This document shows positions 15,179 to 22,291 of a DNA stretch of 64,000 nt, in pieces. Within the stretch, counting starts at the first letter, position 1, and each line of letters opens with the position of its first letter. The stretch is from an uncultured Alphaproteobacteria bacterium (GTDB taxonomy: Bacteria; Pseudomonadota; Alphaproteobacteria; Methylaequorales; Methylaequoraceae), in contig CACBBU010000004.1 in the NCBI GenBank assembly GCA_902537615.1, forward strand, positions 1-64,000, written 5' to 3'. A model generated the notes under the pieces. That model was given only the letters and a program-made list of their open reading frames with translations. It made no database searches and had not been told where the DNA came from. Position numbers and translations under genes: made by a program.

Positions 15179-16333
15179 ATGGCAGAAGATAAAGACGAGA
15201 GTCAAGAAAAGACCCAGGACCCCACCTCAAGGCGACTAGAAAAAGCAAGAGAAGATGGCAAAGTAGTTTCTTCAAAGGAAATGTTTGTGTTTACCATCCT
15301 TACCGTCGGTGTGATTTTAATGTACATTTTCCCACCTTTAATTGAGGATTTTTTAAAAATTTCTAGTTCATTTTTTAATTTTGGTCCTGAATTACTTCAT
15401 GGGAGATCACCTTTACAATCTATAAAAGAAGCAATTTATTTTTTTCTAAAAGTAACTATAATTTTCTCAACTCCACTTTTTTTAATATGTGTTCTGACCC
15501 AGTTCTTAGTTGGTGGTGGTCTTAATTTTTCATTTAAAGCCATGCATTGGAAACTTGAAAAAATAAATCCAATTAAAGGATTAAAAAGGATTTTTTCAAT
15601 GAAAGGGCTTGTTGAATTAGGAAAATCTATCCTAAAAGTAGTATTTTTAGGCGGCATCTCTTATTTTATTTTGTTACGTTATTTACCAGAGTTAGTTAAC
15701 ATTAGTGATTCAAATTTATTTTCGGCTGTAAACAGACTTGTGTCGCTATTTCCCATTCTTGTTATAGCATTACTTGTTGCATTGGGATTAATTGCGGCAA
15801 TAGATTTTGCATGGCAGAAATATGATTATATAAAATCCTTAAGAATGTCTCACCAGGATGTCAAAGACGAATATAAGGAAACAGATGGTCAACCTGAAGT
15901 AAAACAAAAAATAAGAAAGTTACAACTAGATGCAGCTTCAAAAAGCAGAAAAGAAGGTGCTTCAGTTGACAACTTAAGTGAAGCTACAGCTATTATTACT
16001 AACCCAACTCACTTCGCTGTTGCTTTAAAATATGAAGTTGGGGATTCAAAAGCTCCAATTGTAATTGCTAAAGGAAGAGGTAAAAATGCAGAAAAAATTA
16101 TAAATGAAGCTAAAAAACTAAATATTGGAAATATGCAAAGCCCTAAGCTTGCGAGAGCAATTTATTATACTTGTGAAATTGGTGAAGAAATTTTAAGTAA
16201 ATTGTATAATGCGGTAGCCATTGCATTAGCATATATATATAAATTAGATAAGGGTGAAAAAATTGATAAACCAGAAATTGAAATACCAAATGATTTAATT
16301 TTTGATGAATTCGGAAATAAAAATGCTTTATAG
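15179..16333 (+). CDS. flhB: Flagellar export protein FlhB
   Basis: KTQDPTSRRLEKAREDGKVVSSKE; autocleavage motif NPTH (TAIITNPTHFAVALKYE). Confidence 0.95.
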   Translation: MAEDKDESQEKTQDPTSRRLEKAREDGKVVSSKEMFVFTILTVGVILMYIFPPLIEDFLKISSSFFNFGPELLHGRSPLQSIKEAIYFFLKVTIIFSTPLFLICVLTQFLVGGGLNFSFKAMHWKLEKINPIKGLKRIFSMKGLVELGKSILKVVFLGGISYFILLRYLPELVNISDSNLFSAVNRLVSLFPILVIALLVALGLIAAIDFAWQKYDYIKSLRMSHQDVKDEYKETDGQPEVKQKIRKLQLDAASKSRKEGASVDNLSEATAIITNPTHFAVALKYEVGDSKAPIVIAKGRGKNAEKIINEAKKLNIGNMQSPKLARAIYYTCEIGEEILSKLYNAVAIALAYIYKLDKGEKIDKPEIEIPNDLIFDEFGNKNAL

Positions 16334-16532: not shown

Positions 16533-16732
16533 AAAATCTTAATTGTAATAAATGTAAGCATTTTTACGTTACCTATAAACCTAAATTTCCTTACGGTTGC
16601 AAGGCCTTTAGAGTTATCTCAAAAAAATTACCTTATTTAGAAGTCAAGAATATTTCTGGCATAGATTGTGCACTATTTTCAAATAGAAATAAAAATGTTA
16701 TTATTAAGAATGAAAAAGGAAGACTTGCATGA
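16529..16732 (+). CDS. Small Cys-rich protein (CxxC...C...C), conserved uncharacterised family
   Basis: CNKCKHFYVTYKPKFPYGCKAFRVISKKLPYLEVKNISGIDCALF; 4-bp overlaps with both neighbours. Confidence 0.65.
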   Translation: MKNLNCNKCKHFYVTYKPKFPYGCKAFRVISKKLPYLEVKNISGIDCALFSNRNKNVIIKNEKGRLA

Positions 16733-17454
16733 ATCAACAAGTTAATGCAATGCAAGAAAGCATAAAGATAGCTTTAGACGCAGCAGATGCTGCGACTGAT
16801 GTAACATCAGAATATAAAAGAATAAAAAATGAATATCTTAAAGCGGAGCAAAAAGTGAAAGAAATACATAAATATACAACAATTGTTTTTTCAAGTTCAA
16901 TTGCGACAGCTATAATCGCTATAATTTTAACAGGACTTCTATATTTTAAATCTTTGTCTGAATTAGAAGAAATGACAAGTACTAGCAAGGAAGCACTTGT
17001 AGTTTTTGCCGAAAACGTTGAAAACGTGAATAAAGCAGTTGATGATATGAACTCAAGTCTTTCAAAACACACAGACTTAGTAAATGCTAACGAACAAATA
17101 CAGGTTGCTTTAGATAATCTTTCTGATGCAATTAAAGCTAACGACAAAAATCTTATGGTAAATTTATCAAAAGAAATATCAAATCTCTCTAATGGTCTTT
17201 CTAAATCCATTAAAGAAGAGTCCAATAAGTTGGGAAAATCAATAGCTGAAAACAACGTAGTTACATCAGCCAGCTTTAATAAAGAATTCAAAAAATTAAT
17301 GCAAGAAAGTAAAAAAAGTCAAAATACTAAGCTTTTAAAGGAATTATCTAATAGCACATCTTCGCTTAATGCTGCTCTTGAAGCAATCTCAAGTCAAAAC
17401 AAAATGCTTGTTAAAGAAATAAGAGATCAAAAGGAAAGCATCACTTTTCCGTAA
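16729..17454 (+). CDS. Membrane-anchored coiled-coil protein, uncharacterised
   Basis: One TM (TIVFSSSIATAIIAIILTGLLYF) followed by a long Ser/Asn/Glu/Lys coiled-coil region. Confidence 0.6.
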   Translation: MNQQVNAMQESIKIALDAADAATDVTSEYKRIKNEYLKAEQKVKEIHKYTTIVFSSSIATAIIAIILTGLLYFKSLSELEEMTSTSKEALVVFAENVENVNKAVDDMNSSLSKHTDLVNANEQIQVALDNLSDAIKANDKNLMVNLSKEISNLSNGLSKSIKEESNKLGKSIAENNVVTSASFNKEFKKLMQESKKSQNTKLLKELSNSTSSLNAALEAISSQNKMLVKEIRDQKESITFP

Positions 17455-17460
17455 AGTAAA

Positions 17461-18261
17461 ATGATGGCTGAAGCTGAAAAAAAAACACCTACATCTAATT
17501 TTCTAATTAAAATTGATAAAATTAGAAAAAGGTCATATGCAAGCTCTATATTCTTAAAACCAGATGATGTTATAGTTGCTTTAAATAATCAGTTTTATAC
17601 CTATGGAGAAAAAAAATTCATTGAAGAACTAAAAGATCTAAAAAAAACTAATGAACGTGCTGTTCTGACAATACTAAGAAACGATCTTTTTATTGATATA
17701 ATTGTAGAAAACAGTCTTGGGTGTGGTTTTATAACAACTGACAGTAATGAAACAGAAAAAATAAAAGACAGATTTTCAAAAAAGAATAACTATGATATTG
17801 ACGAACTTAACGAATACATCGCAATGAGAGATGTTTACAGAAGATATGATGTGTATGAAAATAGTAACTCACTATCTGCTGGTCTGTTTCCCCCTCTTTG
17901 GTTGGCGTATTCTAGAAAATGGTGGGTTTTGTTAGCATTTTCAATATTATTTTTTATGCTATTTTCTGTAAACTTCTTTTTATTCCTACTTGGGTGGGTC
18001 TTGACATCAGTTTATTGTTACAAAGCTCAATTAAATCTCTTATTTAGTTTTTCAATGCTTGAAGGAAAAGCTTTTAGTATGAAATTTGCTGCTAAATCTA
18101 TAGACGAGGCTCAAGGCTTAATAAGAAATATTGACCCAAAGTCACGCTTTATGTATACAAAGTTAGATGACCCACAAATAGATGAAGATTCCACTGAAAA
18201 TACTAAAAAAAATGAAGAAAAATCAAACATTATTGATGAAAAATCTGAAGCTTTAGTATAA
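17461..18261 (+). CDS. PDZ-like N-terminus plus TM domain protein, uncharacterised
   Basis: LKPDDVIVALNNQFY...VLTILRNDLFIDIIVENSLGCGF (PDZ-like), then GLFPPLWLAYSRKWWVLLAFSILFFMLF (DUF2628-like TM region). Confidence 0.55.
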   Translation: MMAEAEKKTPTSNFLIKIDKIRKRSYASSIFLKPDDVIVALNNQFYTYGEKKFIEELKDLKKTNERAVLTILRNDLFIDIIVENSLGCGFITTDSNETEKIKDRFSKKNNYDIDELNEYIAMRDVYRRYDVYENSNSLSAGLFPPLWLAYSRKWWVLLAFSILFFMLFSVNFFLFLLGWVLTSVYCYKAQLNLLFSFSMLEGKAFSMKFAAKSIDEAQGLIRNIDPKSRFMYTKLDDPQIDEDSTENTKKNEEKSNIIDEKSEALV

Positions 18262-18294: not shown

Positions 18295-18894
18295 ATGGCA
18301 GAGCAATATTCAGTTCAAGCAGAAAATTTAATGAAAACTGCCGTTGAGGAGTACGTTGATGCTTTGAAAGATATCAAGGCTACCGATGCAAACTTGACTG
18401 TTATCAGAAATATCAGAATTAGTATAAGTGGAAAACCAAGAAGGCTTGTAGATGTAGCTGACTTAAGAAAAACTGATGATCCTCACCTTCTAGAACTTTT
18501 AGTTTTTAACACTGAACACATTGACTTATTAGTAGAGAAGATTGATGAGGCTGGTTTTAGTAACGAAATTGATGGACAATTTATCAGAATAAATGTTCCG
18601 GATCCATCATATAAACAACTAATGGAAGTCGTTGATGATTTAAACAGAAAAAAAAATTCAGCTATGGGAAGACTTACTAAAGCTAAATCTGAAGCTACAA
18701 GTAGAGCAAGGACAGCTGTTGAAAATGAATTTATTGCCCAAGGAGTTGCTAGTGCTGCTTCCAAAAAATGTGAAGAGTATTATGAAAATTATGGCGATCA
18801 AATAAAGGATTTAACCATGGAAAAAATTGAGTCCATTCTTGGCGCAGAATATTTTGAAAAATATAAAACGGAAGAATTAGATCTTAATATTTAA
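18295..18894 (+). CDS. Divergent ribosome recycling factor (RRF)-like protein
   Basis: Collinear with RRF by eye: AENLMKTAVEEYVDALKDI / LLVFNTEHIDLLVEKIDEAGFSNEIDGQFIRINVPDP / ...KKCEEYYENYGDQIKDLTMEKIESIL. Confidence 0.55.
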   Translation: MAEQYSVQAENLMKTAVEEYVDALKDIKATDANLTVIRNIRISISGKPRRLVDVADLRKTDDPHLLELLVFNTEHIDLLVEKIDEAGFSNEIDGQFIRINVPDPSYKQLMEVVDDLNRKKNSAMGRLTKAKSEATSRARTAVENEFIAQGVASAASKKCEEYYENYGDQIKDLTMEKIESILGAEYFEKYKTEELDLNI

Positions 18895-19733
18895 ACATTA
18901 AGACTAAAAGAACTCTTTTTACCAATATTTTCAATGTCTAAATACTTTATTCTAGAGGATAGAGGTTTGTTTTCTAAAGATTTACTTTCATCTTCGCTTG
19001 GGCTCCACTGTGGGTAGGAAAAATTAATTTCCCTAAACTTTTCTTCATTATCAATTGATATTTTTTTAGTCTTCTTTTCTAAAAAATTCTCACGCTTTTT
19101 ATTGGAACTCTTCAAAATATTAGAATCAATTTCTTTGATTTTTTTGTTTTTAGGAATGTCTAATTGTTTATCTTTTCCAATAATATTTACATCAGGTGCA
19201 CTAGGTATTGAGTCTGCTTTTTTTTCGGTCACTATATTTGAGAGCGACTGCTTTTGAATATCATTTTTTTGATGAATTCCAGAATATTGAATATAGAGCT
19301 TTTTATTATCATTATTGGTTACATCATTTTTTTTTGAAATTTGTTTTAATTCCTCTTCATCATTTTTCCAAATATCACTGATACCTGTGGCGTCTAAAGC
19401 TAATTCAGTTGGAGTTTTATCAAAGATCTTGTTGAAAACCCAGTTTCCAAAACCGGCTATTGCACCAAAGGGTCCCCCATACAAGAATCCTCCTAAACTA
19501 TTTTGAATCAAGTCTCTATCAGATTCATTATTTTCTGAATTCACACTGGAATAAATTCCACTTATCAATGGAAGGTTTTGCAAAGGATTAACTAAACCCT
19601 TAAACCAACTCCAAAATGAAAATCTATCTTTTTCTGATTCTTGAGAAGATGAATTCTTTGTAACTAACTTATCAGAATTCTCACTGTTTAAATTAAGTTT
19701 TTTGTTATAAAATGGGCTTTTTTCAATAATCAT
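18891..19733 (-). CDS. Conserved hypothetical protein (PLQxxPxxxxxY ... GGxxYGGPxGA motif)
   Basis: VNPLQNLPLISGIYSSV...SLGGFLYGGPFGAIAGFGNWVF; downstream of motB on the same strand. Confidence 0.5.
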   Translation of the reverse strand: MIIEKSPFYNKKLNLNSENSDKLVTKNSSSQESEKDRFSFWSWFKGLVNPLQNLPLISGIYSSVNSENNESDRDLIQNSLGGFLYGGPFGAIAGFGNWVFNKIFDKTPTELALDATGISDIWKNDEEELKQISKKNDVTNNDNKKLYIQYSGIHQKNDIQKQSLSNIVTEKKADSIPSAPDVNIIGKDKQLDIPKNKKIKEIDSNILKSSNKKRENFLEKKTKKISIDNEEKFREINFSYPQWSPSEDESKSLENKPLSSRIKYLDIENIGKKSSFSLNV

Positions 19734-19741
19734 AAAAGTAA

Positions 19742-20920
19742 TCAGTAATTAATTTCAATTTCTATTCTTCTGTTTTTTTCACGACCCTTAACGTCCTCGT
19801 TACTTGCAACAGGTTGTGTTTCTCCATAACTTATAGCTTTCATTCTATCTGGCTTAAGTTTACCGGAACTTGCCAATTCTTGAACCACTGATGATGATCT
19901 AGCAGCAGCTAAGTCCCAGTTATCTCTATAAATAGATCCAAACGTTAATGGTTTATTGTCTGTGTGTCCTGAAACAAGTATTTCACTTCTTCCCTTTTCA
20001 TTCACTTCTGCAATTTTTGCCATTATTTTTTTTGCTTTACCTGTAAGTTCGGCAGAGCCGGATTTAAAGGCACCACCAGATCCAACGGTAATAATAACTT
20101 TGTCATCTTTTCTTTCAATATCTATTAAACCCTGACCAATTTCTTCTTTAAGAGCAACCTTAAATTTATCTTCAGCTAATTGAGCCTTTTTCTCCTCTTG
20201 CTTAGCAGTTTCCTCTGATTCACCACTATTAATTCCTTCCTGAGATTGAGCATCTTGTTTTCCTTTAGCTGATGAGGCTGTGGCCAACATCGCAAGCTGT
20301 TTATCCATTCCACCAATTAAAACTTCTGTTTCAGATTTTCCTGAGCCAGCTTTTGCTGATTCAATAGAATTCAATGTTTCCTGAAGAAGGTTTGGTAGTT
20401 CCCTTTCATCAGCCTTGGTAGGTGTAAAATTTACAACTACTTTATCTCCAAGAACTTCAACGTCAATATCACCTCTAGAAATTGCGTCTTTAATATTTTC
20501 AGCTAATTCTTTAGCATCCTCATTTTCTCCATCATCCTTTGTATTGTCTTGTTTTTTTGTTTGAAGCTCAACCTTTGGTTGATCTGTTTCTGTGGTTTGT
20601 TGTTTAAGGTTTTCTTGAACAGATGGTGTTGGATTAGGACTAAAGCTTAATGAAAGTACTGTAGTTCCTTTAGGCTGCTCTACAACGGGAACTACCCTTT
20701 GTATTCCAAATGCATTTTTTAAACTTCCACTTATTTGTTTGAACTTGGGAACATTAAATTCAGCAAAGGAAAGAATCAAAACAAAGAATGCCATAAGAAG
20801 CGTCGCCATGTCAGCAAAAGTAGCCATCCATGCAGGAGCTCCTTTAGGGGGACACTCTTCACATTCATGCTCCTCTTCCTCAGTCGTTTCCTTTTTTTTT
20901 TCTTTAGCCTCTTCTGCCAT
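19742..20920 (-). CDS. motB: Flagellar stator protein MotB/PomB-like, OmpA C-terminal domain
   Basis: CPPKGAPAWMATFADMATLLMAFFVLILSFAEFNVPKFKQISGSLKNAFG; VSGHTDNKPL...AAARSSSVVQELAS. Confidence 0.92.
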   Translation of the reverse strand: MAEEAKEKKKETTEEEEHECEECPPKGAPAWMATFADMATLLMAFFVLILSFAEFNVPKFKQISGSLKNAFGIQRVVPVVEQPKGTTVLSLSFSPNPTPSVQENLKQQTTETDQPKVELQTKKQDNTKDDGENEDAKELAENIKDAISRGDIDVEVLGDKVVVNFTPTKADERELPNLLQETLNSIESAKAGSGKSETEVLIGGMDKQLAMLATASSAKGKQDAQSQEGINSGESEETAKQEEKKAQLAEDKFKVALKEEIGQGLIDIERKDDKVIITVGSGGAFKSGSAELTGKAKKIMAKIAEVNEKGRSEILVSGHTDNKPLTFGSIYRDNWDLAAARSSSVVQELASSGKLKPDRMKAISYGETQPVASNEDVKGREKNRRIEIEINY

Positions 20921-20932
20921 TTGTTTCTATTC

Positions 20933-21703
20933 CTAAGCTGCGGCTGACTCAATTAGTTTTTGTTTTTCTTTAGGAGGGAGGTTTGCCACTAACTGATCTT
21001 GAATATTTCTTGGACTTTCGCCTCTAGAGATAAATTGCAAACCTGTAATTATCATTTCTCTGTAGGTAGTTTCATAAGCAGAGTATCCTTTTAATTTTAT
21101 AACTAAAGGCATGAATATTGTATTTGCGATCATTGCACCATAAAGTGTTGTCAAAAGGGCAACAGCCATTGCTGGACCGATGGCTTTTGGATCTGCCATA
21201 TTTCCTAGCATTGCTACTAAGCCTACAAGTGTTCCAATCATTCCCATAGCAGGAGCTATATCTACCCATGATTGACAAACACCTATATTTTTTTCATGTC
21301 TAGTTTGCATAGATTTTAATTCTTTCTTTAATTGAACCGTTAGCTTTTCTTCATCTGCTCCATCAACAAGCATTTGAAGTCCGCTATCAAAAAAAGCATC
21401 GGGAGTTTCTTGACCTTCTAAAGCCATCATACCATCTTTCCTGGCAATGCCCGCGAGTTCAACAATACGTGTTATTAATTCGTCCATTTTTTTTACAGGA
21501 GGTTTAAATGCTTTTGCCATAGCGCCATATGCACCAAAATATACAGGAAGTGGAGCCGTGTACATCACAGCAAAAAAAGAACCACCAAAAACTATCAAAA
21601 TTGAGGGAACATCTATATAGGAGCCTAAGCCACCTGCTGAAATCATCGCACCTGCGATCATTCCTAAAGTCCCTAAAAAACCTATTAAAGTTGCTAAATC
21701 CAT
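20933..21703 (-). CDS. motA: Flagellar stator protein MotA/PomA-like
   Basis: WVDIAPAMGMIGTLVGLVAMLGNMADPKAIGPAMAVALLTTLYGAMIAN. Confidence 0.94.
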   Translation of the reverse strand: MDLATLIGFLGTLGMIAGAMISAGGLGSYIDVPSILIVFGGSFFAVMYTAPLPVYFGAYGAMAKAFKPPVKKMDELITRIVELAGIARKDGMMALEGQETPDAFFDSGLQMLVDGADEEKLTVQLKKELKSMQTRHEKNIGVCQSWVDIAPAMGMIGTLVGLVAMLGNMADPKAIGPAMAVALLTTLYGAMIANTIFMPLVIKLKGYSAYETTYREMIITGLQFISRGESPRNIQDQLVANLPPKEKQKLIESAAA

Positions 21704-21817: not shown

Positions 21818-22291
21818 ATGCAAATTATATTTTTTACAATAGTTTTTAGTTTTTTTTCATTCGGAAACTCAATTTCATCTGATTTCATGGACAAAGGTTT
21901 CTATGTTATTGACTTAAAGAACAAAATTGAATGGCTTAAATGCACAACTGGTCAACAATGGAGTGATGAAAAACAAGATTGTTTAGGTTCACCTGTTAAA
22001 CTTGATTTTGAAGAAATTACGCTTGCGTTGGACATACTAAATCAAGAGATTGAAGGTGCTTGGAGACTTCCCAACAGAAAGGAACTTGAAACCTTAGTTT
22101 GTAGAAACTGTGAAGGAGCAAAAATTGATTCAGTGTTGTTCCCTCAGACTCCAGCTCAACCTTTTTGGACATCTCAACGAAATTGGTGGTCGCCGAAATT
22201 TTTCTGGTCTGTAAATTTTTTCACAGGTCATAGTTATGGACGTTTTGTTCCAGAAAAAAAACTTTTTGTAAGGTTTGTCAGAGATCGTTAA
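21818..22291 (+). CDS. Secreted DUF1566 (Lcl C-terminal-like) domain protein
   Basis: Signal peptide; GAWRLPNRKELETLV...FWTSQ...FFWSVNFFTGHSYGRFVPEKKLFVRFVRD. Confidence 0.75.
   Translation: MQIIFFTIVFSFFSFGNSISSDFMDKGFYVIDLKNKIEWLKCTTGQQWSDEKQDCLGSPVKLDFEEITLALDILNQEIEGAWRLPNRKELETLVCRNCEGAKIDSVLFPQTPAQPFWTSQRNWWSPKFFWSVNFFTGHSYGRFVPEKKLFVRFVRDR

Follow-up and report, generated by a model that had tools for sequence, protein, structure and literature searches.

A ribosome recycling factor-like paralog family in Alphaproteobacteria with members encoded beside flagellar stator genes

The window analyzed here, a stretch of 64,000 nt from the draft genome of an uncultured alphaproteobacterium (G000; 78.7% complete, 1.23 Mb), carries a flagellar locus that includes a gene for a ribosome recycling factor (RRF)-like protein. 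This gene, termed RRFL A, occupies positions 18295..18894 of the plus strand (ATG start, 199 aa). Upstream on the same strand lie the flagellar export gene flhB (15179..16333; Pfam, 343 bits), the conserved neighbor X1 (16729..17454), which encodes an uncharacterized membrane coiled-coil protein, and X2 (17461..18261), which encodes an uncharacterized membrane protein with a putative PDZ-like N-terminal domain and is located 33 nt upstream of RRFL A. On the minus strand, X3 (18891..19733), the gene of a fast-evolving uncharacterized protein, converges on RRFL A with a 4-nt overlap and is followed by the stator genes motB (19742..20920; Pfam MotB_plug and OmpA) and motA (20933..21703; Pfam MotA_ExbB). 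The gene thus sits between flhB and motB/motA, within the flagellar locus, as a sequence-only reading of this DNA had described. Beside motA lies a gene for an Lcl_C-domain protein (lclC; 21818-22291), an arrangement seen in nearly all compared flagellar loci, distant families included.

The proteins flanking RRFL A are conserved to different degrees. X1 is 71–98% identical in genomes of the same order and 36–37% identical in family f109, and X3, which has no Pfam match, is 38–75% identical in order-mates. For X2, a low-confidence structural model has PDZ folds as its best Foldseek matches, and Pfam PDZ_6 is weakly matched in an X2 relative. The C-terminal hydrophobic tail of X2, EALV or TVIV, is kept in most of the window's order and differs in families f109 and f18; it looks like a PDZ ligand, while the N-terminal domain of X2 itself appears PDZ-like.

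RRF (PF01765) is the sole Pfam family matched above cut-off by the 199-aa product (E = 4.4e-12; 46.6 bits, gathering score 29.7 bits), with the match spanning residues 23–182 and profile positions 4–164 of 164, i.e., the whole profile. A profile–profile comparison of the RRFL family with frr returned a probability of 97.3% (E 1.8e-11; 180 columns). In an AlphaFold model calculated from 14 sequences of the window's group (pLDDT 89.6, pTM 0.74), the elements follow the order found in RRF, namely an N-terminal helix, an alpha/beta domain and two long helices, and 26 out of 26 PDB matches at E ≤ 0.001 are RRFs. The predicted structure has the two-domain RRF fold, consisting of a three-helix bundle and the mixed alpha/beta domain II, which was placed at approximately residues 31–104 (18385..18606, plus strand) by model secondary structure and its match to solved RRF domain II. 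Full-length TM-scores against RRF structures are 0.4–0.6 (best 0.57–0.60), and domain II superimposes on a solved RRF domain II (rank 27) with an rmsd of 1.9 Å and a TM-score of 0.71 by target. Low full-length scores combined with a good superposition of domain II fit a model in which the RRF domains stand at a different or uncertain angle. The full-length likeness to RRF, noted earlier from alignment by eye, is upheld by these comparisons, as is the proposal of an RRF-fold paralog with a length similar to that of Frr. One detail departs from the sequence-only reading: beyond 'KIESILGAEY', given there as the end of the C-terminal helix, the protein continues for about 14 residues, and this tail, FEKYKTEELDLNI, is kept in part among relatives. 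Pairwise dN/dS values of 0.015–0.074 among close relatives indicate that the gene is functional and constrained, and together with 58–93% identity across order-mates they rule out a pseudogene or chance open reading frame.

As a rule, RRF is an essential protein encoded by one gene per genome, and it is nearly universal. A canonical frr is present in G000 on contig C2 (209.7 bits) in the order rpsB-tsf-pyrH-frr-uppS. This copy between pyrH and uppS is separate from RRFL A and rules the latter out as the only frr of the genome. It scores 212.1 bits against the NCBIfam frr equivalog (TIGR00496), whereas RRFL A, at 31.1 bits, stays far below the cut-off of 149.1, and the two proteins are 19% identical. 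The pyrH-adjacent position in the rpsB-tsf-pyrH operon is thus taken by canonical frr, and the RRFL A gene lies near motB instead.

To compare the two groups residue by residue, we counted alignment columns over 36 RRFL and 14 frr sequences, with 11 sequences representing the window's branch. Seven arginines are invariant in the 14 sampled frr, and the window's branch has other residues at all seven positions (K/Q for R26, D/N for R29, Q for R107, L for R108, T for R127, K for R130 and S for R131), so that RRFL A lacks the invariant arginines of frr, including those of the RTGRA, EERR and VRN[VI]RRD segments. Residues of these Arg-bearing segments contact 23S rRNA in frr. The alignment of frr RN[VI]RRD with TKAKSE in RRFL A agrees with the loss of the Arg-rich VRNVRRD segment recognized earlier. 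Across the whole RRFL family (n = 36), R130 corresponds to K in 35 sequences, R29 mostly to D, R107 mostly to Q and R108 mostly to L. The exchange of R130 for K131 is the only one that yields a constantly basic residue, and K131 may still provide some RNA contact. Among the structures matched by the model are also arginine mutants, namely E. coli RRF R132G and M. tuberculosis RRF R31A and R109A.

In place of frr VRN[VI]RRD, the column counts delineate a family-specific domain I tip (residues 126–147, RLTKAKSEATSRARTAVENEFI; 18670..18735, plus strand), in which K131, R137, E145, F/Y146 and I147 are conserved across the RRFL family. This tip is the most conserved new surface of the family and lies where frr meets rRNA, with other residues. 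RRFL A carries the complete family motif (YS, R49, K131, R137, E145-F/Y146-I147 and G183), of which YS near the N-terminus, R49, K131-x5-R137 and E145-F/Y-I are new relative to Frr. Besides missing the seven arginines and possessing a C-terminal tail, RRFL A differs from Frr in being acidic, with a net charge of -11 and a pI of 4.8; some family members are very acidic (net charge -22 to -25). Judged by these sequence features, RRFL A is very probably a non-recycling RRF paralog.

In our phylogeny, all RRFLs form one clade apart from frr (36 RRFL versus 14 frr; support 100/100). The window's order was represented by 32 genomes, all of family f1, and copy A was found in 22 of the 24 that are flhB-positive, the contigs of the other two stopping inside flhB or X1. 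Copy A is absent from all eight flhB-less genomes of the order, drafts in which the region may be missing; because linked genes in draft genomes are concerned, absences of copy A carry little weight. A second and more divergent paralog, B, was identified in at least 14 genomes of the order, including the window's own (G000:C2:9159-9746; L033:6166-6786; minus strand), and branches from within A in the tree. Paralog B goes undetected by the Pfam RRF profile, and its link to the RRFL family is clear. Its neighbors in most relatives are genes for DnaJ-domain, TerB-domain and coiled-coil proteins.

Using a profile of A and B, we matched a 233-aa protein in genome G408, which as a query yielded relatives in families f109, f174 and f176 (29 of 61 genomes), and a combined RRFL profile added genome G179 of family f18. 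These relatives in four further alphaproteobacterial families rule out a single-lineage oddity. All nine f176 genomes searched have an RRFL; none was found in five f175 genomes, of which three carry flhB. Altogether, RRFLs were seen only in five alphaproteobacterial families, made up of the window's own group, of SAR116-type lineages and of one more family. No RRFL outside Alphaproteobacteria was found in a phylum sample of 399 genomes, a statement on the sample only, and the weak extra matches inspected there were canonical frr. The grouping of A and B with the f176 branch (f1-f176) has a support of only 91/62, and two motB-linked f109 proteins fall outside it, so the tree does not unite the motB-linked RRFLs in a single lineage. 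Further RRFLs are orphans, encoded outside flagellar loci, and RRFLs unlinked to motB occur in near-complete genomes without detected flhB (G416, G418 and G420). At L110:8683-9144 and L115:8551-9000, two SAR116-type orphan RRFL genes each adjoin a gene for a small, apparently exported protein with no Pfam match, the two products looking alike.

The order flhB-X1-X2-RRFL(+)-X3-motB-motA(-)-lclC-rpoN is kept in the window's order wherever assembled, and our survey of flhB–motB neighborhoods recovered RRFL A wherever the assembled locus reaches it. The adjacency of RRFL to motB recurs in three families, with the genes on opposite strands in the window's order and as motA-motB-RRFL in the other two. 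Genus g289 of family f109 has motA-motB-RRFL after flhB-X1-X2, encoded on the other strand. In family f176, motA-motB-RRFL lies on one strand with lclC nearby, as well as rpoN where the contig reaches it, and no flhB, X1 or X2 was found in the 9–18 kb covered around these genes. Genomes G242 (family f109) and G179 contain the same flhB-X1-X2 and motB-motA-lclC-rpoN blocks with no RRFL adjoining motB. The linkage of RRFL to motB is thus recurrent and not universal. X1 and X2 recur between flhB and motB across several alphaproteobacterial families, even where no RRFL lies beside them.

One of the genomes without a motB-adjacent RRFL, G242, belongs to the cultivated Ca. Puniceispirillum marinum IMCC1322 (genome of 2,753,527 bp; PMC3368413). 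It encodes two RRFLs, one of which is fused to a BLUF domain in a 411-aa protein (L109:7069-8301, minus strand; Pfam BLUF 85.5 bits, RRF 32.8 bits), with BLUF at the C-terminus. A malonyl-CoA decarboxylase gene adjoins the fusion gene. This distant relative connects the family to the BLUF photoreceptor proteins (PF04940), from which RRFL A differs in having no BLUF domain, and the fusion shows an RRFL serving as a domain of a predicted signaling protein.

We tentatively favor, at close to even confidence, an explanation in which RRFL A is a repurposed RRF fold that no longer acts in recycling and regulates the flagellar stator by binding proteins. An ancient frr copy would have given rise to a distinct RRFL family that coexists with true frr and has lost recycling, its retained rod-plus-sandwich shape having become a module for binding proteins. 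Among the motB-linked members, this module would serve as a cytoplasmic accessory regulator or adaptor of MotA/MotB, with the neighboring membrane proteins X1 and X2 as probable partners, and would dock through the new tip motif K131...R137...E145-F/Y146-I147 in place of rRNA. Elsewhere in the RRFL family the module would be paired with other partners, for example under the control of a BLUF light sensor. A stator-linked adaptor or regulator is our best guess because motA/motB are the shared neighbors in three families and X1 and X2 in two. Such gene neighborhoods make a stator or motor role of RRFL A possible, at somewhat less than an even chance; the G242 and G179 loci without an adjacent RRFL count against it, as does the position of the window's RRFL A on the strand opposite to motAB. 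YcgR, FliL and similar proteins are flagellar motor accessory regulators. RRFL A would resemble them as an accessory protein tied to the motor, with its gene close to those of the stator, but it has no Pfam match to their domains and has the RRF fold instead.

Since the family has non-flagellar members, as seen in the flhB-less genomes, the BLUF fusion and paralog B, a flagellar role would apply at most to the motB-linked RRFLs. Recruitment to flagellar assembly or its translational coupling, as envisaged in the sequence-only reading, stands in part: gene position next to motB in three families argues for a flagellar association of these members, the wider family includes members that do not share it, and no sign of translational coupling was found at the X2–RRFL junctions of the window and its relatives, where 4–36 nt separate X2 from the RRFL start in the relatives.

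The same distribution bears on a rather unlikely alternative, in which RRFLs serve some general function unrelated to motility, in stress, light or envelope signaling, and the flagellar address is merely a stable chromosomal position. Orphan RRFLs encoded away from flagellar loci, and those of genomes in which flhB was not detected, would agree with it, as would the location of copy B elsewhere in G000 and near DnaJ- and TerB-domain genes in relatives, and the strand of RRFL relative to motB varies between families. However, motB adjacency is found in three families in differing arrangements, twice as motA-motB-RRFL on one strand, and copy A occurs in zero of eight flhB-less genomes of the window's order, drafts that may miss the region.

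It is unlikely that RRFL A is still directed at the ribosome as an altered RRF with another binding mode, such as a competitor of Frr or a modulator of termination and reinitiation on flagellar mRNAs. Both RRF domains and the full length are retained, and the conserved tip stands at the place of frr–rRNA contact and is locally basic (K129, K131, R137 and R139), yet the replacements of the seven invariant arginines are mostly non-basic, the protein has a low pI, the family includes very acidic members and a BLUF fusion, and the junction with X2 bears no sign of coupling. It appears improbable that RRFL A serves the flagellar export apparatus, on the FlhB side and not at the stator, as a factor in assembly, export or chaperoning: in the window's order RRFL comes after flhB-X1-X2, all on one strand, and the X1/X2/RRFL gaps are short, but the f176 RRFL follows motA-motB in regions of 9–18 kb where flhB, X1 and X2 were not found. 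A redundant, functional second frr is highly improbable, as the Pfam RRF match above cut-off is set against a long separate branch, a score below the frr equivalog cut-off, the lost arginines and the presence of canonical frr.

We found no relevant paper on RRF paralogs, RRF-like proteins or RRF with MotA/MotB in the open literature, subscription journals being mostly outside the search; neither a conserved bacterial RRF paralog family with another job nor an RRF–BLUF combination was found in the literature searched. Our stator-linked reading belongs to a broader scenario, which we consider plausible at rather under even confidence: the RRF fold would have been duplicated in an ancestor of some marine Alphaproteobacteria and become a versatile signaling or adaptor module that binds proteins, with one branch in stator control and another on a blue-light sensor, which would give the RRF fold its first described non-ribosomal role. 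For genome annotation, a Pfam RRF match alone is no proof of a recycling factor. An RRFL family under selection in marine bacteria, SAR116-type lineages and Ca. P. marinum among them, would be a clear takeover of a translation factor for another task, and it offers a well-defined candidate, open to testing, for a new component of the motor or of light signaling.
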